A stretch of DNA of 64,000 nt from Gammaproteobacteria bacterium (GTDB lineage: Bacteria; Pseudomonadota; Gammaproteobacteria; Steroidobacterales; Rariloculaceae). The notes beneath the pieces are model-generated. The model was given only the letters and a program-made list of their open reading frames with translations. It made no database searches and had not been told where the DNA came from. The DNA lies in contig JAJEGN010000022.1 in NCBI GenBank assembly GCA_022819855.1, positions 62,001-126,000 on the forward strand, given 5' to 3'. Shown one piece after another: positions 9,906 through 64,000 of the stretch (position 1 is the stretch's first letter; each line of letters opens with the position of its first letter). The translations under genes and the position numbers were made by a program.

Positions 9906-11411
9906 TCAGCCGCCGTCCGTAGTAGCGTTCGCCACTCCGCCTGGTCCGCTCCGACCGGCCTCGAGATACTCTGCGAACTCGCTCTTCGTGTCCGTAAGTA
10001 TTTCGCGCACGGCGGCCCGGTCCTCGAGCGACAGGTGACCAAAATCGCCGTTCGCATCCTCTTCGGAAAAAATCTCGTCGATGCGGCTGTACACGTAAGC
10101 CCGCGTGACGTCGGGCATGGCGTCGAAGGCTTCCGAATGGATCAGGTAGCTCAAGGGGTAGCGGAACACGCGGCGCGTAAGGTCAAGTTCGCGCAGTGAA
10201 CGGCCTGCGCCATCGCGCAGGCCACGAGCCTCGAACTGCTCGGCGAATCCCGACGTGCCCTCGATGGGTCCGGCAAGCTCGACTGCGTCGGCGAAGAGCA
10301 TCGAGCGAACCAACGGCTCGGCGATATTGGCCACGACACCTCCAGCGACACCGTCTGCGCTGATTCCGTCTGCCGCGAGCCCGTCTCCCGTCGTTCCGGC
10401 TTCAAGCGCCGTACGCGTATCGTAATTGACGCGCGTAATTAGGTTCTGCAGGGCAACCTGATGCTCGATCACGAGCAGGGCCACGATATCGCTGTGGCGT
10501 GCCGGATACGGGTCTGTGTCGACCAGCCCGTCGAGGTTCGCGAGGTTGCCGACGCGCAGTGACTCGAGATTCTGAAGCTGCGCCACATCCCTCACGATCA
10601 GATTGCCGAGGTGCACCTGGTCGCCGTGCTGCCCGGTCACGTACCAACCGCCCCAGCGGTTTCTGAGCGGCGTCTGCTCGCTCGTCAGAATCCACCCTTC
10701 GTGGGAGACGAGGTTGCCGTCCGTACCGATATAGCCCGAGCCGAGTATGAACCGCGGCACGCCGCCGCCGGTCAGCGAATACGAGTCGTGGCAGCGCAGG
10801 CAACGGCCAAGTTGCCGCTCGAACGGGGAGTCGACCGTCGCGTTCTGCTCGAGCGTGTAGAAAACCGGGCCCAGGTTCGGATCCATCGACGCGATCTCGA
10901 TCGTCGGAGCGCCACGGGTCCACGCGACGTAGGTCGAATCGTTGAAGAAGATCGCACGCGGCGTCTCCGGCGTGACGCCCCTGATCTGCAGGCTCGTCTT
11001 CGAAAACACGAGCACCTGTGATTCGACGTCGATCTCGAGCGCGGTCAACAGGGAGTCAAGGTAGCCGCGTTCGCCTGCGAAATCGAGGCGAGCTGCGCCA
11101 ATTGCCAGCCGTTCGCGCAGCCGCGCAACGGGATCGGTGAGAACGGCCTCCGCGTAGCCCATCACGGGGTATTCGGCGGCGTAGCGCAAGGCGGCCGGAT
11201 CCTGTTCCGCAGGCGACACTTCGGGCGTCGCCGGCGCCTCGGGAGCTTCGGGCAGGGCTTGCGGGCGCAGCGCAACAACGGCCCAGGCGGCAAGACCCGC
11301 CAGGACGGCAATTCCAACAACTACGCCCAGCCGGTTTCGGTGACCACCCCTTACTTTCCCGCCTTCGACCACTCTTTGGCTGCGCCTCCAAGCCCGTATC
11401 GCAAGGCTCAC
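9906..11411 (-). CDS. Membrane-anchored monohaem cytochrome-like protein of unknown function
   Basis: The product is 501 aa from a GTG at 11411. The true start is uncertain because no clear ribosome-binding site is present. An N-terminal transmembrane anchor (LGVVVGIAVLAGLAAWAVVAL) is followed by a Pro/Ala linker. One haem-binding motif (CLRCH, about residue 204) sits within a domain with VLVFSKTSLQIRGVTPETPRAIFFND and YVAWTRG. I recognise this arrangement from uncharacterised cytochrome-like proteins of environmental bacteria that often accompany oxidative pathways. A C-terminal stretch (FSEEDANGDFGHLSLEDRAAVREIL) resembles a cytochrome-family tail. It is convergent with the DUF6152 gene. 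The electron partner is unknown. Confidence 0.75.
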   Translation of the reverse strand: MSLAIRAWRRSQRVVEGGKVRGGHRNRLGVVVGIAVLAGLAAWAVVALRPQALPEAPEAPATPEVSPAEQDPAALRYAAEYPVMGYAEAVLTDPVARLRERLAIGAARLDFAGERGYLDSLLTALEIDVESQVLVFSKTSLQIRGVTPETPRAIFFNDSTYVAWTRGAPTIEIASMDPNLGPVFYTLEQNATVDSPFERQLGRCLRCHDSYSLTGGGVPRFILGSGYIGTDGNLVSHEGWILTSEQTPLRNRWGGWYVTGQHGDQVHLGNLIVRDVAQLQNLESLRVGNLANLDGLVDTDPYPARHSDIVALLVIEHQVALQNLITRVNYDTRTALEAGTTGDGLAADGISADGVAGGVVANIAEPLVRSMLFADAVELAGPIEGTSGFAEQFEARGLRDGAGRSLRELDLTRRVFRYPLSYLIHSEAFDAMPDVTRAYVYSRIDEIFSEEDANGDFGHLSLEDRAAVREILTDTKSEFAEYLEAGRSGPGGVANATTDGG

Positions 11412-42700: not shown

Positions 42701-42825
42701 AAAAAGTCCGGGCGCGACGAAAGGCGCGCCCGCGACAGACCCTTTGGAACTGAAGGCGCGGCGCAGTCTTCCCGCACGGAGTGCCCGACGACCGCCCGAC
42801 CCTGCGTGCATTTGTTGGAAGCAAT

Positions 42826-45363
42826 ATGGCATTACTCAGAGAAGAGAACTCGAATCGCCCGTTTCACTTCGGACCGTATCCCTTCGAAACGCTGGCGCGA
42901 AGTCCGGAGATCGAGGCGCAGGAAGCCGGCAGCGCCGCGCAGCCGCAGTTTCCCCTTGAGGTCAACGGGAGTGCGTTGGCAAGCATCGCACGGACCTATG
43001 CGAGCCGCTTCCTGAGCTTGCGAGACGGTGAGCTGGAACACGGCAGAGCCGCGGTCCCCGAGGATCTCGCCACTCGCAGCATGGACGTCAAGGGGCTGTG
43101 TCTCTTCCTCGATGCCGCTCACGTAGGAATCTGCAAGGTTCCCGCGAGCGCCTGGTACCCGAACCAGGAGAGGACCGAACAGCAATACGGCGTCGTGATC
43201 GTCGTCGAGGACGGCCGCATGCCCGAGCAGGGCGAGATGGCGTATCGCTGGCTCGATGGCGCCGCAAAGGACATCAGCCGGATGCGCGGTACCGAGATCG
43301 CGGTGAGCCTGGCAGCCTACCTTCGAACTCTGGGGTTCTCGGCGACCGTACAGTCAGCCTACGAAACCGACGTCGATCTCGACAAGCTGGCCGTCCTTTC
43401 CGGCGTTGCGGCCCGTCGCGGCGACAACATTGTCAGCCCTTACCTCAGCGACGGGATCACCGTAACGGCGGTAACGACGGAGTACCCGCTCGCAGTCGAT
43501 CAGCCGCTCGCATCGAACAAGCCGGCGAACAGGGGATTGAAGTACTGGCGCGGCATCAATGGCGCGCTGTCGGGCCGGGAACGCAACCGCCGCGCACGCC
43601 GTCCGTTGCACATGAGCCGCTACCCGATGGAACAGGTGAAACGGGTAGACCGGCCCACCACATTGATCATCGACGACGAAGTACCGCGCGTACCCAAACG
43701 CGCCGATGGCTTTGCCCGCGCGACGATGGGGGATTTCGGCAAGAAGGCGAAGGCAGCGGGTTTCAGCGGGATGATGAAATCTCCCCACAACACCGGGATC
43801 ATGGCGCCGATGCCAACGATGGTGCCCTACCAGAACGGCGAGGTTGCCGACTCCGTTTCGTCTGACTGCAGCGATCCGGCAAATAACGCCAGGGCCATCC
43901 GATCGCTGGCCTATCACATGGGCGCCGACCTCGTCGGTATCTGTGAAGTGCCGGATTACGCCTGGTATTCACACAAGAGCGACGGTGAACCCATCGAGCC
44001 CTACCATCGCTACGCGATCTGCATGCTCATCGATCAGGGCTTCGAAACGATGGAGGGCGCGAGCGGCGATGACTGGATCTCCGCCGCACAGTCGATGCGC
44101 GCCTACACGCGCGGCGGAGAGATTGCCGGCGTCATGGGCGAGTTCATCCGCGGTCTGGGATTTCCTGCGCGCGCGCAGACGGCCGCCGACGGCGATGTGC
44201 AGCAGATCCCCCTGTTGCTCTGGGCGGGTCTCGGAGAACTGAGCCGGATCGGCGAGCTTGTCCTCAATCCCTATGTCGGACCGCGCTTCAAATCGGTCGT
44301 GCTGACGACGGACATGCCGCTGGAAGTGGACAAGCCCATCGATTTCGGGCTGCAGTACTTCTGTTCGAATTGCCTGAAGTGTTCGCGCGAATGCCCGGTC
44401 AATGCCATGTCGTTCGGCGACAAGGTGATGTTCAACGGCTATGAAATGTGGAAGCCGGACATTGAGCGCTGCGTCAGCTATCGTCTTACGAACCACAAGG
44501 GATCCATGTGCGGGCGCTGCATGAAGATGTGCCCGTTGAACAAGATCCCCAGCGTCGACGGGCCGCTCGTGCATCGCATCGGCACATGGCTCGGCGTCAA
44601 CGCCCGCTGGCTCAAGCCCGTCCTCGTGCCCATCGCCGTCTATTTCGATGACAAGCTCGGCTACGGGAAGCGCAATCCGAACAAGAAATGGTGGGTGGAC
44701 ATGGAACTCGTCGACGGCGCCGGCCAGCCGCCTGCCAGGGGTTCCAACGAACGCGACCTGGATCTGGGCGACCTGACGAAGAGGGCGAGCAAGCAGAAAA
44801 TCGCATACTACCCGGCCAATGTGATGCCGCCGCCGGATTCCGACGACGCCTTTCCCGCGGATCGCAAGGCGGCCATCGCCATCGTGAAGGAGATGGAAAC
44901 GCCGGCGCAGGCCCGGGCGCGTGTCGCGGCAGGCGGTGCGACACCGGCGATGTATTTCGCACCCCGGCAGCAATCGTCCGATCAGGAAGCTGCAAGACCG
45001 CGCCCAGCGCCCGTTGTCGCAAGCGGACCGCCCGCGGGCCTCGGTCGATGGCAGCTCGTACTCAAGACGCCGATGGGCGAGCGTACGCCCGTCATAGAGA
45101 TCATGGAATCCGGCTCCGGTTGCAGCGGCACGGTCACCGACGAAACGGGCACCCGCGAACTGTTCGATGTAAGCGCCCACGGCGACGAGCTTGAGTTCTC
45201 GGCCGAAGTGAAGTCACCGATGGGCAAGATGAAGCTCCGGTTCATGGCCTCGATCAGCGGCGACAGCCTGACCGGAAAGGTCAAGACCCCCATGGGCAGG
45301 AACCCGTTCGGCGGCGAACGGCTCCCGGCTGAGGAAACGGAGACCGCAGAGGCGGCCGGCTAG
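42826..45363 (+). CDS. Reductive-dehalogenase-like iron-sulfur protein with internal duplication
   Basis: The product is 845 aa from the ATG at 42826, which has GGAAG 5 nt upstream; a GTG at 42781 is possible. Two RdhA/QueG-like halves are recognisable (AHVGICKVPASAWY and ADLVGICEVPDYAWY; LRTLGFSATVQSA and IRGLGFPARAQTA). Only the second continues into two cluster-binding motifs (C513xxC516xxC519xxxC523P, and C549 with C562xxC565xxxC569P). The first half is a repeat lacking clusters. A C-terminal beta domain of about 90 aa (LVLKTPMGERTPV, VKSPMGKMKLRF, GKVKTPMGRN) is unusual for dehalogenases. No Tat signal or membrane segment is seen, so it may be cytoplasmic. A cobalamin-dependent dehalogenase or other corrinoid reductase is inferred. 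Confidence 0.8.
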   Translation: MALLREENSNRPFHFGPYPFETLARSPEIEAQEAGSAAQPQFPLEVNGSALASIARTYASRFLSLRDGELEHGRAAVPEDLATRSMDVKGLCLFLDAAHVGICKVPASAWYPNQERTEQQYGVVIVVEDGRMPEQGEMAYRWLDGAAKDISRMRGTEIAVSLAAYLRTLGFSATVQSAYETDVDLDKLAVLSGVAARRGDNIVSPYLSDGITVTAVTTEYPLAVDQPLASNKPANRGLKYWRGINGALSGRERNRRARRPLHMSRYPMEQVKRVDRPTTLIIDDEVPRVPKRADGFARATMGDFGKKAKAAGFSGMMKSPHNTGIMAPMPTMVPYQNGEVADSVSSDCSDPANNARAIRSLAYHMGADLVGICEVPDYAWYSHKSDGEPIEPYHRYAICMLIDQGFETMEGASGDDWISAAQSMRAYTRGGEIAGVMGEFIRGLGFPARAQTAADGDVQQIPLLLWAGLGELSRIGELVLNPYVGPRFKSVVLTTDMPLEVDKPIDFGLQYFCSNCLKCSRECPVNAMSFGDKVMFNGYEMWKPDIERCVSYRLTNHKGSMCGRCMKMCPLNKIPSVDGPLVHRIGTWLGVNARWLKPVLVPIAVYFDDKLGYGKRNPNKKWWVDMELVDGAGQPPARGSNERDLDLGDLTKRASKQKIAYYPANVMPPPDSDDAFPADRKAAIAIVKEMETPAQARARVAAGGATPAMYFAPRQQSSDQEAARPRPAPVVASGPPAGLGRWQLVLKTPMGERTPVIEIMESGSGCSGTVTDETGTRELFDVSAHGDELEFSAEVKSPMGKMKLRFMASISGDSLTGKVKTPMGRNPFGGERLPAEETETAEAAG

Positions 45364-50846: not shown

Positions 50847-53018
50847 CTAGAAAGCGAGCGGATCCGGCCTGATTTGAAACTTGACGGCCTTGCCGAGCGT
50901 GCCCAGGCCGCCTTCGGTGTGCCAGATCAGGTGCGTTCCGTAGTTCGCCCAGAGCCCGCGACCCTTCCAGCCGGCGCTCGGATCGTCGATACGCCCGTCT
51001 AGCCCGCGGTGGAAGAACCCGAGCGGATACGGCACGCGCAGCGTCGTCCATTCGCCAGTCTCCGGATCCAGCGCAAGCAACGCGTCCGAGTTCGAACCCG
51101 TCGCGATCGGCGTGTCCTGGCCCAGACCCGATATGTTGTGCTGATCGACCCAGCCGAAGTAGTGAAAATCGGAGGGAACGTCAGTGCCCTGGAACGTCGG
51201 GCCGTCGGTCCGGAAGAGCGTCCAGCCTTCCTCGCAGTGCGTGCCCGTAATCATCTCCGGACCGTTCAGCACTTCGCACTGGCTGCGGTCGAAACGCGCG
51301 AAGTGGCTGCTTCCCGCCAATGCGGCCCAGACGATGCCGTTGCTGTCGATGTCGATGCCGCGTGGATCGAAACCGGGGTCGGGCACCTGGTAGAACTCGG
51401 CCATGCAGGTCTGCGGTGGATTCGTGCCGGGATCGACGCGCACGATGTGGCCCGGATAGCTTTCCGAGGCGCCCCAGACGGCGCTGTCGACGGGGCTCGG
51501 GATGACCGAATAGAGGTTGTAGCTCACTTCAGAGTCGAGGGTCGGGTCGAACTCACCCTGCCATTCGTTCCACGGCCGGGTGATCTGCCCGTCGCCGTTG
51601 GTGTCGAGCACCTGCGGGCACCAGCCCTGCGTCGCCTGCTCGTCGCCCGTACGGTCGAACTCGCGGGTGTTGATCCAGCCGACGATCGGCCCGAGCAGCT
51701 CGTTGAAGTAGAGCGTCTGGTCGGGATCGTTGTCGAACTGCAGGTGATGCGTGGAGAAACAGGTGTCGATGAGCACGAACTCTTCGGTTTCCGGATCGTA
51801 GTAGGACGCCTGGCGGAAGCTTCTGTTCAGCGGGTAGTACTGCGCGTATTCGTGATCGGAACCTTCCATGCACCAGTCCGGCTGGTCGTTGCGGATCTTC
51901 GACGTCATCCACACCCGGCCCTTGCGGTCGAGCATCGGATTGTGCGGATCGGACGGATGCTCCGGCCCCCACAGGTGCGCGTCGCCCCAGAAGTTCGAAG
52001 GCACGGCCGGCGGCGGGAAGCGCGTATTGACTTCGCGCGGATCCTCGCGTGTCGGCACGATGAGCTCGTACGTGTCGTTGTCGACCGGGTCGAGCACGGT
52101 CAGCTTGCCGTGGCCGGACGACACCGCGTAGACCGGCCCGTAGGCATTGACGGTCGGGTCGTTCTTGTCGGTTGTGATCTCGTCGTGCATGAAGGAGTCG
52201 GCGACGCCCCAGTCCCAGAGCGTCACGACGACGTTGCGCTCGATGCCCTGCGGCCGCTCGGGCTCGTCAGGCACCTCGCCGGCCTCGATGCGGTTCGTCC
52301 AGTCGGCAAACCGCTGCATGGCGGCCTCGCGGCCGAATGCGCTGAAGGCGCCCGCCATCGACGTGCCGCGCACGCCGATCTGCGTTCGATAGCCCCAGGC
52401 CTCCTCGGCGGACTCAAAGCCCAGGTGATCCATGTGGTCAAGCGTGCGCGTGATCTCGTTGCCGATCTGGTGGCAGAAATTGCAGGAACTCTTCTGGTTG
52501 TTCAGCCACTGCTTCTGCGTGAGCATCTGCGGCGAGATGCCGTTGCCGTCGGGGCCCGTGCCCGGGAACTCGCTTTCCGCCGGCGGCTCGAACATCGCGT
52601 ACCAGTGGTTGGCGGGATAGACGCGCGCCGCCTCCTGCCGCGTCTCGGCGACGATGGCGTCGAGCGCGAGCCCGCGGTCGCCGGGCCGCCCCTCGACGTG
52701 CTCGGAATCGACCAGGCCGTAACCGCGCACCCACACGTTGTAGGTGGCTTCGGGCAGTTCCGGCAGTACATAGCGGCCATTGTCGTCGGTCACGACGATC
52801 TTCGTGAACGGCGTCTTGAGTTCGCTCGTCTCGGCGATCACCCAGACCCCGGCTTCCGGCCCGTTTGCGCTTTCAACCACGCCCGTGATGTAGCCCTCGG
52901 GCAGATCGACCCGGCGCTGTGCCGAGGCGTTCGTGCCGATGGCAAGGGCGGCTGCCGCCGCGATGATTCCGATTCGGACGGAAAGACTTGTTGCGCGTTC
53001 GCGTAATGACCCGCTCAT
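50847..53018 (-). CDS. Secreted protein with carboxypeptidase-regulatory-like, monohaem and propeller regions
   Basis: The product is 723 aa from the ATG at 53018, preceded by GAGGAA. After a signal peptide (ALAIGTNASAQ) comes a carboxypeptidase-regulatory-like beta domain (GYITGVVESANGPEAGVWV, TDDNGRYVLPELPEATYNVWV). A haem motif C-N-F-C-H sits at about residue 190 after NHWYAMFEPPAESEFPGTGPDG-type sequence. The remainder resembles a virginiamycin-B-lyase-like propeller (FDPRGIDIDSNGIVWAAL, GWVDQHNISGLGQDTP). I know the architecture from uncharacterised proteins of environmental bacteria. It probably acts in periplasmic electron transfer or oxidation. It is convergent with the IclR gene. Confidence 0.8.
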   Translation of the reverse strand: MSGSLRERATSLSVRIGIIAAAAALAIGTNASAQRRVDLPEGYITGVVESANGPEAGVWVIAETSELKTPFTKIVVTDDNGRYVLPELPEATYNVWVRGYGLVDSEHVEGRPGDRGLALDAIVAETRQEAARVYPANHWYAMFEPPAESEFPGTGPDGNGISPQMLTQKQWLNNQKSSCNFCHQIGNEITRTLDHMDHLGFESAEEAWGYRTQIGVRGTSMAGAFSAFGREAAMQRFADWTNRIEAGEVPDEPERPQGIERNVVVTLWDWGVADSFMHDEITTDKNDPTVNAYGPVYAVSSGHGKLTVLDPVDNDTYELIVPTREDPREVNTRFPPPAVPSNFWGDAHLWGPEHPSDPHNPMLDRKGRVWMTSKIRNDQPDWCMEGSDHEYAQYYPLNRSFRQASYYDPETEEFVLIDTCFSTHHLQFDNDPDQTLYFNELLGPIVGWINTREFDRTGDEQATQGWCPQVLDTNGDGQITRPWNEWQGEFDPTLDSEVSYNLYSVIPSPVDSAVWGASESYPGHIVRVDPGTNPPQTCMAEFYQVPDPGFDPRGIDIDSNGIVWAALAGSSHFARFDRSQCEVLNGPEMITGTHCEEGWTLFRTDGPTFQGTDVPSDFHYFGWVDQHNISGLGQDTPIATGSNSDALLALDPETGEWTTLRVPYPLGFFHRGLDGRIDDPSAGWKGRGLWANYGTHLIWHTEGGLGTLGKAVKFQIRPDPLAF

Positions 53019-53281
53019 GACAGTTCCTCTTCGAACCCGATTGATGGCATGGCTCCGGTTGCACGGCGGGCATTCGGGCGGCACGCCTTCTGCAGCGACC
53101 GTGCCCGGAGGTTCTTCTCTCACGGGGACAGGATTATACGAACGTCGACGGCACAATGCGCCCCGAGAACCGCCTGGCAACAGCTCCGTCCGGCGACGTC
53201 GCTTCACACACCAGGCAACGGCGATGCGAAATGCCCGGTACGGTTCAACGTGCTAAATTCAGCGCAAGCAGGAGGACGACC

Positions 53282-54477: not shown

Positions 54478-54762
54478 TTAGCCAGTCCGCTGCTGCGTGC
54501 CGGAGCGGCAGCGTTCGATGTACGACCTGATCGCCACGACGAATTCGCCAACGTTTTCTGCGCTATAGAGTTCGAGGATATCGTCGATCGCAATCTCGAC
54601 CCCGAAACGCGCGCAACATTGCGCGACGATCGAGACGATACCCAGGGAATCGAGACTGAGCGACGCGAGACTGGTCGACGAATCCATACATGATTCATCG
54701 GCGCCAGCGACCGCTGCCACGATTGCGGAGATGGCTACTTCGTACTCTGCCGCCGTTTCCAT
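54478..54762 (-). CDS. Acyl-carrier-protein-like protein
   Basis: The product is 94 aa from the ATG at 54762. The motif SLSLDSLGIVSIVAQC has the D38-S39-L40 phosphopantetheine attachment site in the right helix context, and IDDILELYSAENVGEFVVAI is typical ACP helix III. It is separate from fatty-acid genes and lies at the end of a peptide-export operon, 54 nt after a small Cys-containing peptide gene. A dedicated carrier for acylating or building an exported peptide is possible, by analogy with ACP-dependent toxin acylation. An in-frame upstream extension to 54810 is possible. Confidence 0.72.
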   Translation of the reverse strand: METAAEYEVAISAIVAAVAGADESCMDSSTSLASLSLDSLGIVSIVAQCCARFGVEIAIDDILELYSAENVGEFVVAIRSYIERCRSGTQQRTG

Positions 54763-54816
54763 GATTCGGAATCCCGAAGCCGACCTCAATTCAGCGGTCT
54801 GCGATCTCATGCACGC

Positions 54817-55023: not shown

Positions 55024-57219
55024 TCAGACTATCGGGGCCGGCACCGCCGGCATCGGCAACTCTCCGAGCCGGCTCCCGCTCGGCCGCTCCGGTCGATGTC
55101 CCGCGACTTGTGTGATGCCGGCGAGCCTGCCGGCCTCGATGGTCACGACGCGATCCGCCTGCGCGACCGTCTGCGGGCGATGGGCGATGATCACCCGCGT
55201 GACGTTGAGGCTTCGTATGGCGGAGTTGACCTGGCGCTCGCGATCAAGATCGAGATGGGCAGTAGCCTCGTCGAGAAGCAGTATCTTCGGGCGCCGGTAC
55301 AGTGCCCGAGCCAGCAGGATGCGTTGCGTCTGGCCGCCTGAGAGCGCCGAACCCATGTAGCCGACGAAAGTGTTGTAGGCCATCGGCATGCTGACGATCT
55401 CGTCGTGAATGGCTGCCATGTACGCACATTCCTCGACTCGCGACTGGTCGCGGCGTTCGCTGAAGAAACTGACGTTGTCGGCGATCGTGCCGTCGAAGAG
55501 CGTGTCGTCCTGAGTCACGCTTCCGATCCACGCGCGGATGGTATCGGCGCCCGCCTGCCGCATGTCGCGTCCGCCGATCAGGATCTCGCCCTCGGTCGGG
55601 CCGAGTATCCCCAGCATCAGGTGCATGAGCGTGGTCTTGCCGCAACCCGATGGCCCGACGATCGCGACCGACTCGCCGGCCTCGATCCTGAGGTCGATGC
55701 CGTCCAGAACCCAGGGTTCGTGCTCGGCGTAACGAAAACGCAGGCCGCGCAACTCGATTGTCGGCTCGGCATCCGCCTCGTCCGACAATGCCAGGCGTTC
55801 GGTCTCGTCGATATCTTCCGGTTCCGTCATGACGATGTCGGCCAGACGTTCGCCCTGCAAGCCCAGCATCCGGAGCTCGCAATACTTGTCGACGAGCGCG
55901 GCAACACGCGTCGCGAACTGCCGCTTGTAGGCGAGAAACGCGATCAGCATGCCGGCCGTCATCTGGCCGCCGAGTACGAGCGTCGCCCCGAGCCAGATGA
56001 CGACAACATTCTCGATGCCGAACAGGAGCCCCTCGGCAAGCCGGTAGAAGATCTGCAGCTTCTGCGTGCGAAGACCCGCGTTGATCTGGTTGACGAGCAG
56101 CGCCAGCCAGCTCGTGCGGCGTTCGGCGCGGCGCCGGTAGAGCTTGATGGCCTTGACGCCCCGCACCGTTTCGATGAAATGGCTCTCCTGCCTTGCCGCG
56201 TGGACGATATTCTGTTCGGTGGCGTGGCGCAGCGGCGCGAACCATGCCCACCGGATCAAGGCGTAAATCGTCAACGCGCCGACGCAGATCCACGACAGCA
56301 AGGGGCTGTAAAGGAAGATCACGATCAGCGTGATCAGCGTGACCGCGCCGTCGGCGATCGCTTCGATGAACGTCGTGGTCAAGGTGCGCTGGATGACGTC
56401 GATCGAGCGAAACCTCGACACGGTATCGCCCAGGTGGCGCTTTTCGAAGTACGACAGCGGCAACCGCAACAGGTGCGTGAAGACGTTTGCCTGCCACTGG
56501 ATGCTCAGGTTCGTGCTGAAGTACATGATGACCCAGGAGCGAAGCCCCGCGATCGACTGCTGCAAGACGGTCAGCAGCAGAAAACCGAGCGCCAGCATCG
56601 TCAGCAGATCGTTGTTGAAGGACACGAGCACGTGGTCGATGACCCATTGGAGAAACAGCGGGCTCGCGATCGCGAAAATCTCCAGCGCAAGCGCAAGCAG
56701 CAGAATCTGCCCGAGCGAGCGGAAGAGGCCCGTGACGCGGCCAATGAGGTCGCGCAGCCTCACTTCGGACCGGTCGCTGCGCGGTTCGAAGTCCTGATTC
56801 GGCCAAAGCTCCACGGCTACGCCGGTGAATGCCGGAGACACTTCGTCGTGCGTGAGCCTGCGGAATCCCGCTGCGGGGTCGTGGATCTCGATACTGTTGC
56901 CGCGTACTGCCTTGAGTACGACAAAGTGCTTGAACTCCCAATGCAGAATGCACGGGCACCGAAGCTTGTCGAGGTCTTCGAGTTCGAGCCGCAGCGGCCG
57001 CGTCGCAAGACCCAGGCGACTTGCGACATCGACGATTCCGTTGAGTCTCGCTCCCTTGAGGGACACGGGGAAGCGCCGCCGGAGCGACGCGAGATCGGTA
57101 CGATAGCCGTGATAGTTGGCGATCATCGACAGGCAGGCCAGCGCGCACTCGGCAGCCTCCGTCTGCAGTTCGACGCCGAGGCGTGTTCTCAGGCCCAGGC
57201 GTAGCTGATCGATCACCAT
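55024..57219 (-). CDS. Peptidase-containing ABC transporter (C39 peptidase, CvaB/LahT-like)
   Basis: The product is 731 aa. The N-terminal C39 domain has LQTEAAECALACLSMIANYHG with catalytic Cys25, KHFVVLKAV with the His, and IHDPAAG with the Asp, all intact. It is therefore expected to cut double-glycine leaders. A six-helix membrane domain spans about residues 165-440. The ATPase has GPSGCGKTT (Walker A), LSGGQTQRI and ILLLDEATAHLD. Such proteins cleave and export bacteriocins or other small peptides. Likely substrates are encoded just upstream on the same strand (57667-57960 and 58751-59041). The HlyD adaptor at 60905 completes a type I export system. Confidence 0.93.
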   Translation of the reverse strand: MVIDQLRLGLRTRLGVELQTEAAECALACLSMIANYHGYRTDLASLRRRFPVSLKGARLNGIVDVASRLGLATRPLRLELEDLDKLRCPCILHWEFKHFVVLKAVRGNSIEIHDPAAGFRRLTHDEVSPAFTGVAVELWPNQDFEPRSDRSEVRLRDLIGRVTGLFRSLGQILLLALALEIFAIASPLFLQWVIDHVLVSFNNDLLTMLALGFLLLTVLQQSIAGLRSWVIMYFSTNLSIQWQANVFTHLLRLPLSYFEKRHLGDTVSRFRSIDVIQRTLTTTFIEAIADGAVTLITLIVIFLYSPLLSWICVGALTIYALIRWAWFAPLRHATEQNIVHAARQESHFIETVRGVKAIKLYRRRAERRTSWLALLVNQINAGLRTQKLQIFYRLAEGLLFGIENVVVIWLGATLVLGGQMTAGMLIAFLAYKRQFATRVAALVDKYCELRMLGLQGERLADIVMTEPEDIDETERLALSDEADAEPTIELRGLRFRYAEHEPWVLDGIDLRIEAGESVAIVGPSGCGKTTLMHLMLGILGPTEGEILIGGRDMRQAGADTIRAWIGSVTQDDTLFDGTIADNVSFFSERRDQSRVEECAYMAAIHDEIVSMPMAYNTFVGYMGSALSGGQTQRILLARALYRRPKILLLDEATAHLDLDRERQVNSAIRSLNVTRVIIAHRPQTVAQADRVVTIEAGRLAGITQVAGHRPERPSGSRLGELPMPAVPAPIV

Positions 57220-57484: not shown

Positions 57485-57667
57485 CTACTGGTCTCCCGAG
57501 CGTTTCCGCGAGACGAGGGCGCGCGTCAAGAACCCGGCGAGCAGCCCGACCGCGACGGCCAGCACGACAGTTTCCGCCAACGCCAGTTCGTTCGACAACG
57601 TAACCGCAGCCACCGTGACACCCACGGCCACGCAGACCGGAACCAACCACTTGCTGCGTGTCTTCAT
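57485..57667 (-). CDS. Small two-helix membrane protein, immunity-like
   Basis: The product is 60 aa: a short basic start (MKTRSKW), two hydrophobic helices (LVPVCVAVGVTVAAVTL and ETVVLAVAVGLLAGFLTRAL) and a basic tail. Its ATG overlaps the TGA of the precursor gene (TGATG), so the two are translationally coupled. The close paralogue at 58481-58690 also follows a precursor gene. Small membrane proteins in this position are usually bacteriocin immunity proteins; that function is inferred. Confidence 0.65.
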   Translation of the reverse strand: MKTRSKWLVPVCVAVGVTVAAVTLSNELALAETVVLAVAVGLLAGFLTRALVSRKRSGDQ

Positions 57668-57960
57668 CACGGAGCGTTCTTCCATGCATCCAGGTCGGCG
57701 CCGGAGGAAGGGTCGGTCTGCGGGCGCCGGTCGTGGAGCGGGCCCGTAATGAACGCGTAAGCATAGACCGGCACCCCCCCGGGAAACATGCCGCCCGGTC
57801 GCCCGCTCGCGACCCCCGGAAAACCGAACGCGTAGCCGCTCCAGGCGCCGCTCACGAGTAACAGCTCGGTATCCGAGAGTTCTCGCATCGTACCCGCAGC
57901 CGTCTGTTGCGCGGCGCTGACCCGACGGCTGGCCGTCGAAGTGTTGTTGATCGAATGCAC
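57667..57960 (-). CDS. Double-glycine-type exported peptide precursor
   Basis: The product is 97 aa from a GTG at 57960, supported by AAGGAGG 6 nt upstream. The leader contains MRELSDTELLLVSGA, which matches ELxxVSG(G/A) double-glycine leaders cut by C39 peptidases. Cleavage after GA would release a core of about 57 aa starting WSGYAFGFPGV, rich in Gly and aromatic residues. The same leader block (MREL-S-ELLLVSG) is in the precursor at 58751. It lies about 440 nt upstream of the transporter, which is the likely exporter. An antimicrobial role is inferred. Confidence 0.72.
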   Translation of the reverse strand: MHSINNTSTASRRVSAAQQTAAGTMRELSDTELLLVSGAWSGYAFGFPGVASGRPGGMFPGGVPVYAYAFITGPLHDRRPQTDPSSGADLDAWKNAP

Positions 57961-58089
57961 GGTCCACCTCCTTGCATGTTTCCATCAGTTCCATTGCTTG
58001 CCGCAGGATGCGACCCGAAACAGCCTACCGGTGGGGATCGAACATTCCAAGATCGGAATCGGCTTGTTTCGCGGCGATTTGAATGGGAA

Positions 58090-58506
58090 CTAATCCTGGT
58101 GTGGTCCAGGCTGTTGCTCGTTCTCCGCCAACCGCAGGATTCGCTCGGCGGAACCGGGCAAAACAGCATCGTAGCGTTCGAACAGTGCCGGCGGAGGGAG
58201 CGGCCCCTTGAACGAGGCCGCTTGTACGTACGCTACTCGCGTTTCGTCAGGAACACCTTCGAGCATCGCGCTCGGCAGCATTTCGCCGACTTCATCTTTG
58301 GCGCGATCCTTGAGTGCCGACTCGGGCGGAGGGGGTGTTCGTGTGCTCTTGCGTTTCGTCCGCTTCGGTGGTTGCGCGGAGAAAACGGGAGCCGGAACGA
58401 GAACCTGATCGTGCGTTCCGGCTCCCGTAGCGTCAACACGGGATTCGATGCCAGAGATACGGCGACTCGCCCGCCTGGATTCAGTCCTCCGATCGGCTGT
58501 GCGCAA
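58090..58506 (-). pseudogene. Truncated DUF2335-like reading frame
   Basis: The C-terminal part of this 138-aa frame (FKGPLPPPALFERYDAVLPGSAERILRLAENEQQ) matches the conserved block of DUF2335 membrane proteins. The two transmembrane helices that normally follow are absent, and the frame stops after PGPHQD. The start is unclear: a TTG at 58506 overlaps the previous gene and reads through the hairpin at 58385-58428, while an ATG at 58281 gives 63 aa. It sits between the two precursor/immunity modules and is probably a remnant. Confidence 0.4.
58385..58428 (-). terminator. Strong hairpin terminator after the immunity-like gene
   Basis: ACGGGAGCCGGAAC (58385-58398) and GTTCCGGCTCCCGT (58415-58428) are perfect 14-bp arms with a 16-nt loop. 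On the minus strand the stem is followed by TTTCTCC, so an intrinsic terminator about 50 nt after the stop at 58481 is likely. It resembles the hairpin at 57394-57435. Confidence 0.65.
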
Positions 58507-58690
58507 TGGAAAAGCGCGCCAGCGACCCGGCGAGCAATCCGATTGCGATCGCTAAGATCACAGTCTCGACAACCGTCGTTTCTGTCGCCATCGAGATGGC
58601 GGCAACTGTGCAACCAACGCTGAAGCAAACCAGGTAAAAGCACTTTCTCTTACCTGGCTGATTCCACTGGATCTCGTCTGCTTTCTTCAT
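58481..58690 (-). CDS. Small two-helix membrane protein, immunity-like
   Basis: The product is 69 aa. A basic N-terminus (MKKADEIQWNQPGKRK) precedes two hydrophobic helices (FYLVCFSVGCTVAAISMA and VETVILAIAIGLLAGSLARF) and a charged tail (HSRSED). It aligns with the protein at 57485 (TVVLAVAVGLLAG versus TVILAIAIGLLAG). AGGAAAA lies about 9 nt before the ATG. It follows the precursor gene at 58751 by 60 nt and is followed by a terminator hairpin. Immunity to the neighbouring peptide is inferred from position and topology. Confidence 0.65.
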   Translation of the reverse strand: MKKADEIQWNQPGKRKCFYLVCFSVGCTVAAISMATETTVVETVILAIAIGLLAGSLARFSIAHSRSED

Positions 58691-58750
58691 TTCGTGATTT
58701 TCCTGGCGTCGAATTTCAAAGAGAAGCTCGGGGCCGTCGACGGTCTTTGC

Positions 58751-59041
58751 TCAGCAAGTCCACCAGCTCCAGATCTGGCTGCCGATGTAGGTAAAACCGC
58801 CTCCGATGGCGCCGCCGATCAAGCCGACGCCCGCGCCATGCAAGCCACCGAGATACAGCCCGGTCGCCCCCCCGCCGAGCGCCCCTGCGAATACCGAACC
58901 GCCGAAGTCGGTCCAACTCCAATCACCGCCGCTCACGAGCAGCAGCTCCGCAGCGGAAAGTTCGCGCATCGCGCCGGTAGCCGGCAGTTCGATGGCGACC
59001 GCCGATGCACTGACCGAAGGGCTCATTTCAACCGAGTACAT
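58751..59041 (-). CDS. Class II bacteriocin/microcin-like precursor with double-glycine leader
   Basis: The product is 96 aa from the ATG at 59041; GGAGG lies 6 nt upstream. The leader ends MRELSAAELLLVSGG, a textbook double-glycine cleavage site. The predicted core of about 58 aa starts DWSWTDFGGSVFAG, is packed with GxxxG-type glycines (GALGGGATGLYLGGLHGAGVG) and ends IWSWWTC. Trp at both ends with a Gly-rich helix is typical of membrane-inserting two-peptide bacteriocins and class II microcins. The sister precursor is at 57667-57960. Export by the C39 ABC transporter and HlyD protein nearby is expected. Confidence 0.8.
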   Translation of the reverse strand: MYSVEMSPSVSASAVAIELPATGAMRELSAAELLLVSGGDWSWTDFGGSVFAGALGGGATGLYLGGLHGAGVGLIGGAIGGGFTYIGSQIWSWWTC

Positions 59042-59255
59042 AGTCCACCTCCAATGTGTTTTCAAGTTCCGTCGTTTGTCGCGTCAGGCGACATGAGCAC
59101 GTTAGCGATCCTGGACCAACGAACCCACACCTGAATCGGGGCATTTCGAATCGATTGGAGCACGGCGATCATTGCTGTCGGCAACGGTCGGGCGTCGCAC
59201 TCGAACCACGGGAACAGGAAACGCCCGTTACCCATGCACAACCCCAAACCTCGGG

Positions 59256-60602
59256 TTACGCCCGCTTGTACGCACTCAGCGCCAGCATGAGCCCAATGGT
59301 GTTGTCGCGCGTCTCGCGGAAGAAGGCGAGCGAGAGTTCGGGAATCGGGCACTGGAGGACAGGTTCCTCGTTTTCGGCCGCGATGAGTTCGGCGCGCAGC
59401 CTGCGATCGGCGCGTTCCGGGCCGATCTCAAGCACCAGCCGATCGTCGTCGTGTTCGGCCCTTACGGTCGTCCGGCCGCCGCCGATGTATCGGCCCTCAA
59501 GCTCGTCAAGCTCGAAGGGCAGCGAGCGCGGCGTTCTCGCCGCCATGCGTCCGCTCAGTTGCTGGCAGAGCACGGTCAGAATGTAGTCGCGCAGATGGGG
59601 GAGTTGGGCATTGAGGCCGACGACGATGGCAAGCTTCGATCGCCGATCGTAGCGCAGCCCGATGCACTGGCCGCGCGTCTGGCCGTTGTGACCGAGGAAA
59701 CCGTCGCGCTGGTGCGCCGTTCCACAGCCGAAGGCTACCGGACGCAGCTCCGCGTAAGCGCCGCCGACGACGGCCGGCAGCATGATGGCGCGACGCTGAA
59801 GCTGGTCGAGCGTGGCCCTGGACAGCGGCCCGGCCGCGCTGCCGTTCGGCTGCGCAAATGCTTCGGCAAGGGTAAGCAGATCGGCTGCGGACACCGAAAA
59901 CCGGGCGAACGACGGTTCCCAGAACTCCGCCATGGCCGATACGGCCGCGCTCGGGCGGAAGCGCCGCGTCGCAGGGTCGAAATCGTGACGTCCGGCGCTC
60001 GTCTTTCTCGATGAACCCGTGCCGCAATCGCGCATGGAGATGCCGAGCGGATCGAGCAGCTTCTCGCGAATCAGTTGATTCGAATCCCGACCCGTGACCC
60101 GGCGCACGATCCGGCCGAGCAGCACGGCTTCGCTGTGCTCGTAGCTGAACACGCTCCCCGGTTCGAAGAACTGCGGCGCCGACCGAAGATAGTCGACGAA
60201 ACGATCCCATGTGAGCGACCGGCCTTCGGCGTCGTGGATGCTGACACCGCGGTAACCGCTCGTATGCGACAGCAGATGCCCGATGCGCACCGAATCGCCG
60301 GCCCGGGCGCCGCGCAACTCGGTGAGGTATTCGCCGATCGGCGCGTCGAGGTCGAGCTGGCCCCCACGGACGAGTTCGAGAACGACGGCGGCCAGCAGCA
60401 GCTTCGTTACGCAACCGACCCGGAATTGCGAGAACTGCGACATCTTGTCGGAGCCACCGGCTGCGGTGGCTCCGACATTGACATAGATGCGCTGCTGAAG
60501 ATTGCTGATTGCAACCGCGATACCGGGAACCTGTGTTTGTGCGCGGACCTGCGTAACGAAAGCATCGATCCGGGCCGCGACCGCATCGGGAGAGTGCTGC
60601 AT
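59256..60602 (-). CDS. Beta-lactamase-fold protein with Cys in place of the SxxK serine
   Basis: The product is 448 aa. The serine-hydrolase/penicillin-binding fold is clear (HLLSHTSGY, PLGISMRD, FGCGTAH, FLGHNGQTRG). The catalytic SxxK is C64-V-T-K67 in RVGCVTKLLL, so the nucleophile would be Cys. The second motif is Y154-E-H (SYEHSEA) and the third HNG. GGAGC precedes the ATG. No signal peptide is evident, so it probably acts in the cytoplasm. The C-terminal 90 aa form a beta-rich domain. It lies upstream of the precursor genes on the same strand, suggesting peptide modification or acyl transfer; neither is proven. Confidence 0.82.
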   Translation of the reverse strand: MQHSPDAVAARIDAFVTQVRAQTQVPGIAVAISNLQQRIYVNVGATAAGGSDKMSQFSQFRVGCVTKLLLAAVVLELVRGGQLDLDAPIGEYLTELRGARAGDSVRIGHLLSHTSGYRGVSIHDAEGRSLTWDRFVDYLRSAPQFFEPGSVFSYEHSEAVLLGRIVRRVTGRDSNQLIREKLLDPLGISMRDCGTGSSRKTSAGRHDFDPATRRFRPSAAVSAMAEFWEPSFARFSVSAADLLTLAEAFAQPNGSAAGPLSRATLDQLQRRAIMLPAVVGGAYAELRPVAFGCGTAHQRDGFLGHNGQTRGQCIGLRYDRRSKLAIVVGLNAQLPHLRDYILTVLCQQLSGRMAARTPRSLPFELDELEGRYIGGGRTTVRAEHDDDRLVLEIGPERADRRLRAELIAAENEEPVLQCPIPELSLAFFRETRDNTIGLMLALSAYKRA

Positions 60603-60904
60603 GAGCTGCTCCGATCATGGACCTGCAAGTCGCTTGATTTCATCGCGTCAGCGGCGCGGGGGATATCCGAATTTCGAGGCATTTCGACAAGAAGCGACGG
60701 TTGCAGGGTCATCGCTTCCATGGGGTATCGTCATGGCCGCTATCGTCCACCTTGTTATCGAGGCTCTCGAAACGGATTTCATCAATGCGTCGCGTGCGAT
60801 TCGCAGGGGAGTTGCAGACAGTCGTGAATCCCCAACGCGAGCGTTCGCCACCATGACACTCCTTTCCGGGCTTCCGATTTCCAACTGCGAGGCGCCGTTT
60901 CCCC
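60603..60904. other. Divergent intergenic region, possible small peptide frame
   Basis: 302 nt between the CxxK protein (minus) and the HlyD gene (plus). It should hold two divergent promoters; none is obvious to me. On the minus strand a 68-codon frame (60854 to 60648) has AGGAG 5 nt before its ATG, but its sequence (MVANARVGDSRLSATPL) has no recognisable leader or helix. I do not call it a gene. Confidence 0.3.
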
Positions 60905-62176
60905 ATGCAAACCCCATCGCCGCTGTTTCGCCAGACCGCCCTTGAGGCGCGCGACCGCGAGACGCTTGGCAGGATCGTCCTGGTCCGCCCGGTGTCCTTC
61001 GGGATCTACTGCGGTATCACGCTTGCTGTCACGCTCGCGCTGGTCGGCTTCTTCGTCCGGGGCCAGTACACGCAACACGAAACGCTGTTCGGCCAACTCG
61101 TGCCGGCGCGCGGGATCGTCGAGGTCCGTGCGCCGCAGCCTGGAACGATCGTTCAGCGCAGTGTCGAGGAAGGCAGCGTCGTCGCAAGCGGTGACGTGCT
61201 CTACGTCGTTTCGAGCGAGCGCGTGAGCCGCGCCCACGGCCCGATTCACGACTCGGTGGCGCGCCAGCTCGATATCCGGCGCCGCAGCCTCATGCAACAG
61301 ATCGAGCACACGGACCTCTCGGCCGAGAGCGGCAATGCCGCGCTCAAGCGCCGAATCGCCGCGCTCGAATCGGATCTCGACGAACTCGCGGAGCTGCTGC
61401 TCGCCGAGCGGGAACGCGTCGCGCTTGCCGAGGATTCGCACGCTCGTCATGCGCGGCTCGAACGCCAGGGATTCATACCGGGCGAAGCCCTCCTGGCCAA
61501 GCGGGCCGAAATGCTCGACCGGCGCTCGCGTTTGAAACACCTTGAGCGCGAGCGCTCGCAGGCGCTGGCGGAACTGGGCGAACTGGAGAATCGCCTGGTC
61601 GATCTCCCGCTCGAACATCGTATCCGGATCGCCGAACTCGAGCGTGCCGTCGCCATGGTCGAGCAGGAGATGGCCGAGAACGCCGCCCGACGCAGCATCG
61701 TGATCGCGGCCCCGGCCGATGGCGTCGCAACCGCCGTCATGGGTAGCGTCGGACAAGCCGTCGACGGCGGCAGGGCGCTCGTATCGATCGTACCGCTCGA
61801 TTCGCCGTTGCAGGCCGAACTCTATGCGCCGAGCCGCGCCATCGGCTTCGTCGCTCCCGGCGATGAAGTCCGATTGCGATACCGGGCCTATCCGTATCAG
61901 AAGTTCGGTCACCATCGCGGCACGGTTGCGACGATATCCCACAAGCCGTTGTCGGCTGGCGAACTGCCGACGTCGCAGGCATCGGCGCCCACCGCGAGTC
62001 GCGAACCCCTGTACCAGATCGTCGTCCGGCTCGATACCCAGTCGATCCGGATCGACGGCGAGCCCCGCGACCTCAGGGCGGGCATGCTGGTCGAAGCGGA
62101 TATCCTGCGCGAGACGCGGCGCCTGTACGAGTGGATACTCGAACCGCTGCGTACCGTGACCGGCAAACTTCATTGA
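60905..62176 (+). CDS. HlyD/CvaA-type membrane-fusion protein of the peptide exporter
   Basis: The product is 423 aa. A single N-terminal membrane segment (PVSFGIYCGITLAVTLALVGFFV, about residues 29-51) is followed by a lipoyl-like half (GIVEVRAPQPGTIVQRSVEEGSVV), a long alpha-helical hairpin rich in Glu, Arg and Leu (residues about 120-255), and the second lipoyl half (IVIAAPADGVATAVMGSVGQAVDGG). It links the ABC transporter to an outer-membrane TolC-like protein. FRQTALEARDRETLGRI before the membrane segment is typical of the CvaA/RaxA group. It is transcribed away from the ABC gene. No TolC gene is in the window. Confidence 0.9.
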   Translation: MQTPSPLFRQTALEARDRETLGRIVLVRPVSFGIYCGITLAVTLALVGFFVRGQYTQHETLFGQLVPARGIVEVRAPQPGTIVQRSVEEGSVVASGDVLYVVSSERVSRAHGPIHDSVARQLDIRRRSLMQQIEHTDLSAESGNAALKRRIAALESDLDELAELLLAERERVALAEDSHARHARLERQGFIPGEALLAKRAEMLDRRSRLKHLERERSQALAELGELENRLVDLPLEHRIRIAELERAVAMVEQEMAENAARRSIVIAAPADGVATAVMGSVGQAVDGGRALVSIVPLDSPLQAELYAPSRAIGFVAPGDEVRLRYRAYPYQKFGHHRGTVATISHKPLSAGELPTSQASAPTASREPLYQIVVRLDTQSIRIDGEPRDLRAGMLVEADILRETRRLYEWILEPLRTVTGKLH

Positions 62177-62189
62177 TGCGGCGGGCGGT

Positions 62190-62279
62190 TTAGCCCGCAG
62201 ATCTCACCAAGCCGCACCGCAGATACATATGATCGGGCCTGCGCGATCATCGCGGCCCTTGGTGAGATTTGCGGGCTAA
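62190..62279. repeat. Long inverted repeat between convergent genes
   Basis: Arms at 62190-62211 and 62258-62279 are 22 nt each and pair with one mismatch (TTAGCCCGCAGATCTCACC against its complement with A for G). The 46-nt spacer contains a second palindrome, ATGATCG ... CGATCAT. A short GCGGGC...GCCCGC hairpin overlaps the left end. It lies exactly between the 3' ends of HlyD and the second CxxK gene. It may act as a bidirectional terminator or be a small repeated element of the genome. Confidence 0.75.
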
Positions 62280-62285
62280 TGGCTG

Positions 62286-63830
62286 TCAATACCGTTTTCG
62301 CCAGACCCGTCGACCGTTCCACAGGTAGCGCCGGGACCCTCCGTCCCGCTCGATGAACTGAACGAACGGAAACCGGTCGGGCGCGCCGGGCTCCGGCAGG
62401 AAAACATCGCCGGCCGCAGGTTGCAGCGGGGTGGCAAAGCGCGTCTCGGGCCTTTCAGCGGGATCGCGGCGCGCGCGGTCCACCGCCATCCGCAAGCCTT
62501 GGTCGGACGCTGAACTGACGCGCACCGCTTCTGCCGCCGTCCTGTAGACGCCTTTGTGCCGCCCCAGATCCATGCTCTGGATCGCGTCTGCGGTCAACCG
62601 CTGCGGCAGCTTCAACAGGGCGAATTCCGGCAGGAATCGGCCGAACAGCCGCGCGGCGACGAGGAGCGCAGGCTGATCGCGTGACGCGATCACGAGCGCG
62701 GTACCGTGCGCCGGACGAATGCGCACGAGCACGGATGCGCCGGGCCAGGTCGAATGATGGCCGAACCAGTTCCGGCCGTACGACTTCCAGCCCAGGTAAA
62801 TTCCGCGTTCGAAGGGGCTCCAGCCCGGCAGCCCGAAGACTTCCGGGCGCTCGCAGGCCAACGCTCTCGCCGCATCGGGTCGGTCTCCGGCGGCCTGCGC
62901 TTGTTCCATCCCTCGCGCCCGTTGCTCGCCTTGTGTTCCTGTCTCCGTTGTCCCGCGTTGCCGAGCCGCGTCCGTTTCCGGCCATGTCGCCCGTACCGGC
63001 CATGTCGCGCCCGCGGCGGCGGGCATCCACGCGGCGCCCTCAGCCGATACCGCAGCTTTTTCGCCTGTCGTCCCCGCGGTTCCGCCGCGCGGCGACGCGC
63101 ATCCCTCGTCCGGCCACGCGTCGGGTCGGCAAATCGCGACGTGTTGCAGAAAGCGCAACAGGCCGGATACGGGTACCGCAAGTTGCTCGCCCCGCGACGC
63201 ACAGACATGCGCAGCGGCAGGCGCGTGAACCGGGTCGATGCCCGACGCCGACCGCATTCCGAGCGGCGTGAGCAGCCGATCCTGGAGCAGCGCCGCCCAA
63301 CTCGTCCCGGACAGTTTCTCGAGCACGGCGGCGATCAGCCAGGCACCGGCGTTGGAGTAGCTGTAGAGCTTCCCCGGCGCGAACAGCGGCGCGGCGGCCA
63401 CGAGCTGCCGAACCAGGCGCGGCGCGTCGATCTCGCCGTTCGGCAGACGCGGCGCGATGGTGACGGTCGAATCGTCCAGCCCGTGCGTGTGCTCGAGCAG
63501 ATGCCGCAGATCGATGCGTGAATACACGGCGCGCAGATTGGACGTCTCGTCGGACAGATACTCCGACACGGGACGGTCGAGCGCGACGCCGCCCGTCGAT
63601 TCCACCTGCCGGAGCAGCTCCGAGGTCAGTAGTTTGGCGATGCATCCGGCCGGGAAGACTTCGGGCGCTTCGCCTCCGCTCCCGCCCGCGACGCGCGCGA
63701 CCTGAACGATCCCCGCTGCCGTCACGCCGACTTCGATGTGCTCGCGGGCATGCCCGCGCGCGATCTCATCGAGCCGCCGCTGAAGATACCCGGGCTCAAG
63801 GTACGCAAATATGTCGGCCGACGACGGCAT
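62286..63830 (-). CDS. Beta-lactamase-fold protein with Cys nucleophile (CxxK) and low-complexity insert
   Basis: The product is 514 aa from the ATG at 63830; the frame stays open to 63992. The fold is shown by RHLLEHTHGLDD, LFAPGKLYSYSNAGAWLI, LLTPLGMRSASG and WFGHHSTWPG. The SxxK position is C63-I-A-K66 (FPAGCIAKLL), as in the sister gene at 59256. The second motif is intact (Y158-S-N160). Residues about 230-325 are a low-complexity Ala/Gly/Thr/Arg insertion before the HHS motif. No signal peptide is evident. Its location beyond HlyD suggests it belongs to the peptide-export island. A Cys-based acyl enzyme is inferred. Confidence 0.78.
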   Translation of the reverse strand: MPSSADIFAYLEPGYLQRRLDEIARGHAREHIEVGVTAAGIVQVARVAGGSGGEAPEVFPAGCIAKLLTSELLRQVESTGGVALDRPVSEYLSDETSNLRAVYSRIDLRHLLEHTHGLDDSTVTIAPRLPNGEIDAPRLVRQLVAAAPLFAPGKLYSYSNAGAWLIAAVLEKLSGTSWAALLQDRLLTPLGMRSASGIDPVHAPAAAHVCASRGEQLAVPVSGLLRFLQHVAICRPDAWPDEGCASPRGGTAGTTGEKAAVSAEGAAWMPAAAGATWPVRATWPETDAARQRGTTETGTQGEQRARGMEQAQAAGDRPDAARALACERPEVFGLPGWSPFERGIYLGWKSYGRNWFGHHSTWPGASVLVRIRPAHGTALVIASRDQPALLVAARLFGRFLPEFALLKLPQRLTADAIQSMDLGRHKGVYRTAAEAVRVSSASDQGLRMAVDRARRDPAERPETRFATPLQPAAGDVFLPEPGAPDRFPFVQFIERDGGSRRYLWNGRRVWRKRY

Positions 63831-64000
63831 GGCCACAGAAGACGACAGCACGCCCGTGCGCGTCAATCCGCATTTCGGCGCGGAATCATGAGTTTTTGGC
63901 CTCGACTCCCACAGCGCCGTCCGGCCCAATGTTCCGATGCAATCCCCAAGCTTCAGGCATTTCGCGCTGAGCGACCCGAACCGCATCGCCATCCGCGAAG

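Follow-up and report, generated by a model that had tools for sequence, protein, structure and literature searches.

Two beta-lactamase-fold proteins with a conserved cysteine at the nucleophile position in a microcin-like peptide island as candidate thiol acyltransferases

Introduction

The beta-lactamase fold is best known for the attack on a C-terminal peptide or ester bond. Within the class C beta-lactamase superfamily, no characterised natural enzyme with a Cys nucleophile is known to us. Acyl transfer is also found in this fold. LovD and the macrolactin-type acyltransferases carry out such transfer with a Ser nucleophile, and LovD takes the acyl group from an acyl carrier protein (ACP). 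Among secreted ribosomal peptides, class IIb microcins are conjugated to a siderophore, so that the peptide gains a small-molecule group before export.

The stand-alone cyclases SurE and Ulm16 work in trans to nonribosomal peptide synthetases (NRPS) on thioester-activated peptides (PMC11735501). Their catalytic residue is Ser, and the NRPS peptides are set free by them in macrolactam form (PMC11735501). According to the same review, an ordinary NRPS thioesterase became more active as a cyclisation catalyst when its Ser was exchanged for Cys (PMC11735501). Acylated ribosomally synthesised and posttranslationally modified peptides (RiPPs) include the nostolysamides, which carry their acyl groups on Lys (PMC13060382).

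The locus described here shares features with each of these systems. Like the penicillin-binding-protein-type thioesterases SurE and Ulm16, its proteins A and B are stand-alone, retain Lys and Tyr and appear to combine a PF00144-like N-terminal part with a C-terminal beta domain. Unlike SurE and Ulm16, which have Ser and act on NRPS peptides, they have Cys and are accompanied by a ribosomal precursor and an exporter; in the four genomes, the neighbourhoods of A and B contained no recognisable NRPS gene. In our reading, they would share acyl transfer by the PF00144 fold with LovD and the macrolactin-type enzymes, which differ in their Ser nucleophile and small-molecule acceptor. The island has the leader type, exporter, adaptor and small hydrophobic protein after each precursor of class II microcins and double-glycine bacteriocins, although its core peptides score below the family cut-off, and in no described class II system known to us are a ligase, an ACP and two CxxK proteins present. 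As in class IIb microcins, a secreted class II microcin would receive a small-molecule group, but through different enzymes, and no homologues of the class IIb enzymes were seen among the annotated neighbours. The product would resemble the nostolysamides in being a ribosomal peptide that bears an acyl group, whereas Lys is acylated in those peptides and here the P1 core lacks Lys and the candidate transferase has a beta-lactamase fold. A lineage that has kept the change in two enzymes and also encodes an acid-activating ligase, an ACP and an exported peptide offers a direct test of whether Ser-to-Cys makes a very large hydrolase fold a dedicated acyltransferase. If true, this would represent a new type of acyl-transfer enzyme for ribosomal peptide biosynthesis.

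A microcin-like island encodes two PF00144 proteins

The analysed stretch of 64,000 nucleotides (hereafter the window) comes from a gammaproteobacterial genome (G000) belonging to Candidatus Rariloculus or a very near relative. Its peptide island comprises, in this order, genes for an ACP (54478..54810), a double-glycine-type C39 peptidase/ABC exporter (PCAT; 55024..57219), precursors P2 and P1, each with a small hydrophobic protein, and protein A (59256..60602), all on the minus strand, then an HlyD-family periplasmic adaptor of the exporter on the plus strand (60905..62176) and protein B on the minus strand (62286..63830). Precursor P2 (57667..57960) has a double-glycine-type leader (MRELSDTELLLVSGA) and a core without Cys, and is followed by a 60-aa hydrophobic protein (57485..57667). 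Precursor P1 (58751..59065) has a double-glycine leader (MRELSAAELLLVSGG) and a Gly-rich core that lacks Lys and has Cys as its last residue; a 69-aa hydrophobic protein follows (58481..58690). Both hydrophobic proteins are candidate immunity proteins. P1 matches PF10439 with an E-value of 1.7e-4 and 21.9 bits, below the cut-off of 27.1, and its match to MccV is weak. Double-glycine leaders, a C39-ABC exporter, an HlyD adaptor and small membrane proteins give the island a gene content similar to that of class II microcin clusters.

The related genomes named here are metagenome-assembled. The same island was found in G008 and G009, which belong to the same genus as the window genome. The P1-type cores of G000, G008 (two cores) and G009 are Gly-rich, lack Lys by inspection and each end in Cys. 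In G021, a genome of another genus of the same family, no P1-like precursor was detected by homology to P1.

A cysteine replaces the nucleophilic serine in A and B

Proteins A (448 aa) and B (514 aa, including a low-complexity insert) match PF00144 (beta-lactamase fold, peptidase S12) with E-values of 4.9e-47 (161 bits) and 1.4e-32 (114 bits), respectively, against a curated Pfam cut-off of 27. The usual motif of this family is S-x-x-K with a Ser nucleophile; A, B and all their orthologs have Cys instead and keep the Lys. A carries CVTK and B carries CIAK, within a common G-C-[VI]-[TA]-K motif whose counterpart in relatives is G-S-x-x-K, and both retain the Lys and the Tyr. The Cys is encoded by TGC codons at 60411..60413 (C64 of A) and 63642..63644 (B), both on the minus strand. 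In pairwise alignments with solved structures, 'frvgcvtk' of A falls on 'fqvGSiTK' of IS11 and 'fpagciak' of B on 'fpfGSVTK' of SurE, so that the Cys occupies the nucleophile position and not an adjacent one. The corresponding residues of A are C64, K67, Y154 and H305, and C64 lies at the start of helix 65-79 in the predicted model. Y154, the catalytic Tyr of the Y-x-N motif, is unvaried across all 72 rows of our alignment. At the Asn position of this motif, every A protein has His (Y-E-H) and the B proteins have either Asn or Ser; the A protein of G021 has Ile in place of the H-x-G His.

Orthologs of A and B were found in G000, G008, G009 and G021, amounting to eight proteins from four genomes and two genera, with the G021 proteins 43% (A) and 41% (B) identical to those of the window. 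G-C-[VI]-[TA]-K-L is kept in all eight. The nucleophile column of the 72-row alignment contains Cys in 8 rows, Ser in 63 and Ala in one, the 64 non-ortholog rows including five PF00144 paralogs of the window genome; the six other PF00144 proteins of that genome all have Ser. Alignment of the eight orthologs gave 26 invariant columns, among them G63, C64, K67, H113, G116 and Y154 (A numbering). Comparison of the three congeneric genomes gave dN/dS values of about 0.2 (A) and about 0.36 (B), and the Cys codon alternates between TGC and TGT while the residue is preserved. These sequence comparisons support purifying selection on A and B and selection for a thiol at the nucleophile position.

The initial annotation of this DNA had described CxxK at the nucleophile position with Lys and Tyr kept, a description confirmed by Pfam and by the alignments (Cys in 8/8 orthologs and 0/64 other rows); both open frames lie at the positions that it gave. 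Its argument that a thiol nucleophile is selected for agrees with a Cys retained over deep divergence, alongside Lys and Tyr, at the dN/dS values given above. Two outcomes that it named as speaking against it, a sporadic Cys and a different nucleophile, were checked among orthologs and homologues and neither was found: the Cys is retained in 8/8 orthologs, which rules out a sporadic occurrence, and the sequence alignments keep it at the SxxK position, which speaks against another nucleophile.

No other CxxK member of PF00144 was present among the hits with motif read from 369 genomes of the class, 398 of the phylum and 196 of the order, all of which have Ser except for one degenerate Ala; the motif was read for part of the order hits and for no plasmid hits, and Actinomycetota and metagenome contigs were hardly or not covered. 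Nor was any present among the motif-read hits of the genome contigs scan and the IMG/VR contigs. The listed rows of plasmid hits did not exceed about 31% identity, and repeating the Pseudomonadota search at a stricter cut-off gave zero matches. The best non-orthologous relatives of A and B are a tandem PF00144 pair in genome G828 with an SxxK motif, near which no exporter or precursor was seen. Nothing relevant on natural Cys variants or CxxK members of this fold was found in the papers searched.

The trees differ on whether the change occurred once or twice. A and B sit in the same small PF00144 clade, in which the tree joins A to B with a support of 95/77, beside seven SxxK rows. When the Cys column was masked, the best tree separated A from B, giving two changes, and a single change was recovered in 13% of bootstrap trees; a single clade of A and B was not rejected by the AU test (p 0.51). 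These trees are compatible with one event or with two, and the independence of the two copies, as put forward in the initial annotation, is not supported by them.

Predicted location and fold of A and B

No signal peptide was detected by hydrophobicity in A or B, and the N-terminal stretches of the SxxK paralogs of the window genome are more hydrophobic than theirs. The predicted models have a mean pLDDT of 87.6 (A) and 80.5 (B). The low-complexity insert of B (about residues 245-320) spans tens of residues of low pLDDT and is absent from the B proteins of G008 and G021. Foldseek ranked the IS11 esterase first for A, whose best matches also included SurE and a Pyrococcus PBP homologue; for B, the best were SurE and Ulm16. 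Each of the two models has both SurE and Ulm16 near the top of its solved-structure matches; SurE aligns across most of each, with a TM score of about 0.6. Thioesterases of the SurE type pair a PBP-like N-terminal domain with a lipocalin-like C-terminal one, and the C-terminal part of the A model is beta-rich. Macrolactin acyltransferase structures appear in both hit lists, and LovD is absent among the listed structure hits. In VIA-align, run on A, numerous class C beta-lactamases came no more than 3 Z below the top match, so that no subfamily stands out. A ClbP-like periplasmic peptidase or a resistance beta-lactamase was also considered and is disfavoured, because the Ser is missing and A and B have neither a signal peptide nor a strong membrane helix.

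A and B co-occur with an acyl ligase and an ACP

The ACP-like gene noted earlier in the island is a true PF00550 member. Matches including the Ser of the DSL motif have E-values of 3.6e-9 in the window, 9.7e-12 in G008 and 1.5e-9 in G021. A gene for a FadD-like AMP-binding acyl ligase of 505 aa starts on the plus strand at the end of the window (63937..64000), divergently from B, and continues past it (full gene at G000:C21:125937-127451; L020:10938-12455). The closest families of this ligase are FadD4-like and normally make acyl-CoA, which renders the loading of an ACP by this enzyme uncertain.

Co-occurrence was assessed across the family (22 genomes). A and B are found together in four of them (G000, G008, G009 and G021), and the closest ligase (60-94% identity) is present in the same four genomes and in none of the 18 others, the next-best match in a sample of 196 genomes of the order reaching at most 43%. 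The closest exporter (62-93% identity) has the same distribution (4/22, with 0/18 in the others), and its G021 ortholog (62%) adjoins B. In G020, of the same genus as G021, A, B, the ligase (at least 60%) and the exporter (at least 62%) are all missing at these thresholds. Three of the four genomes yielded an ACP: G000, G008, where it adjoins the exporter gene, and G021, where it was detected weakly (E 2e-5) and is 32% identical to that of G008; in the fourth, G009, the contig stops within the exporter gene. In G021, the ligase and ACP genes are divergent neighbours on contig C35, and A, B, the exporter and HlyD are on C68, which argues that the link to A and B is not one of mere position. Two traits would fall on the same 4 of 22 genomes by chance once in 7315 cases if genomes are treated as independent; since three of the four belong to one genus, they amount to about two independent cases. 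The proposed connection to acyl-carrier chemistry is strengthened by the ligase, which lay outside the view of the initial annotation, and by the four-genome co-occurrence. A CarboxypepD_reg-domain protein is encoded near the ACP gene (window 50847-53207) and a homologue on the ligase/ACP contig of G021 (L124:1034-3265); they may simply belong to a multicopy family.

Possible function of A and B

The association of A and B with an acid-activating ligase and an ACP suggests a role in acylating the peptide. We tentatively read them, with a likelihood somewhat short of even, as thiol acyltransferases of the cytosol that would transfer the acyl group from an acyl-ACP to the precursor peptide, which would then be exported. 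The AMP ligase would activate a carboxylic acid and load it onto the ACP, and the Cys of A and/or B would accept the acyl group by thioester exchange and pass it, in the cytosol, to a residue of the leader-bearing precursor. In Rariloculus, the last Cys of the P1-type cores might serve as this acceptor, a speculative guess that fits with the missing Lys in the P1 core. Going by its family, the C39-ABC/HlyD exporter would then remove the leader and secrete the acylated peptide. A and B could work in series, form a heteromer or handle different acyl groups or precursors. The earlier suggestion that a thiol would favour thioester or acyl-transfer chemistry gains from the conserved Cys and from the acyl-carrier link; the transfer itself we only infer.

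Counted in favour of acyl transfer are the Cys in 8/8 orthologs against 0/64 other rows, the purifying selection, the lack of a signal peptide, the structural proximity to SurE, Ulm16 and the macrolactin acyltransferases, and the co-occurrence. Counted against it are the position of the G021 ligase and ACP genes away from A and B, the roughly two independent cases of co-occurrence, the FadD4-like families of the ligase and the low identity (32%) between the ACPs of G021 and G008. P2 has no Cys to serve as acceptor, G021 has no P1-like precursor, A lacks the Asn of Y-x-N, and the G021 A protein lacks the His of H-x-G. A new route of RiPP acylation, with paired Cys enzymes of the beta-lactamase fold, a dedicated ligase and ACP and a microcin-like precursor modified before export, possibly at its C-terminal Cys, is conceivable but on balance doubtful.

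A and B might instead act at the carboxyl side of the peptide, a Cys-peptidyl thioester being passed to an amine, alcohol or thiol to yield a cyclic or C-terminally conjugated peptide. The chemistry would be that of penicillin-binding-protein-type thioesterases and DD-transpeptidases, with the ligase and ACP supplying the partner molecule. The head-to-tail peptide cyclases SurE and Ulm16, which rank among the closest structures for either model and are the best matches of B, are consistent with this, as are the attack at C-terminal bonds for which the fold is best known and the Cys that terminates every P1-type core. We nevertheless find it rather unlikely: a ribosomal precursor is a free acid with no evident activation, its leader blocks head-to-tail closure in the cytosol, and an NRPS gene was not seen in the island. 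That the two proteins are hydrolases, either proofreading thioesterases of mis-loaded ACP or esterases, with a Cys that merely tunes the rate, seems unlikely. Hydrolases make up most of the characterised PF00144 relatives, and A has an esterase (IS11) as its top fold match, but Cys acyl-enzymes often favour transfer over hydrolysis, and the Cys is invariant in the A and B families while other relatives retain Ser.

The ligase and ACP could also be unrelated neighbours, with A and B performing other chemistry on the peptide. The two genes lie at opposite edges of the island and on another contig in G021; yet the genomes that carry a ligase of at least 60% identity are precisely the four that carry A and B, against a best of 43% elsewhere in the 196-genome order sample, and G021, which has A and B, carries a divergent ligase/ACP pair too, which makes mere neighbourhood quite unlikely. 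The least probable explanation in our view is that A, B or both are non-catalytic partners (scaffold, regulator or immunity protein). It would account for the loss of the H-x-G His in the G021 A protein, for the faster evolution of B (dN/dS about 0.36) and for its low-complexity insert in the window genome, whereas a dead enzyme would have no need for the Cys, Lys and Tyr that are invariant in both families.

Additional features of the island and its genomes

In G008 (contig C30, L021), an additional P1-type precursor (11170-11349) adjoins a 65-residue C-terminal remnant of A (10705-10992) that is 82% identical to A, which looks like a partial duplication of an A-precursor-immunity module. The precursor block (window 57485-59065; L021 11622-13202) is 98.6-99.4% identical at the DNA level between G000 and G008, and gene A is 93.8% identical; either recent exchange or strong constraint would explain this. 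A DUF2335 protein within the block (window 58090-58506) appears truncated, and its copy in G009 (L022:12776-13249) is intact with a membrane segment. In place of a P1-like precursor, G021 encodes a short peptide ending in LLSVGC, with Cys as its last residue (L023:9096-9395, minus strand), beside a rhomboid-domain membrane protein.

Elsewhere in the window genome, a second C39-type exporter-like gene (C5:430434-432494, L145) and a weak second precursor-like match (C15:94599-94823, L156) were found. In the window itself, a protein with ferredoxin-type Cys clusters (42781-45363) resembles, by eye, a reductive-dehalogenase-like protein, and its neighbourhood contains TonB receptor and DUF6152 genes.
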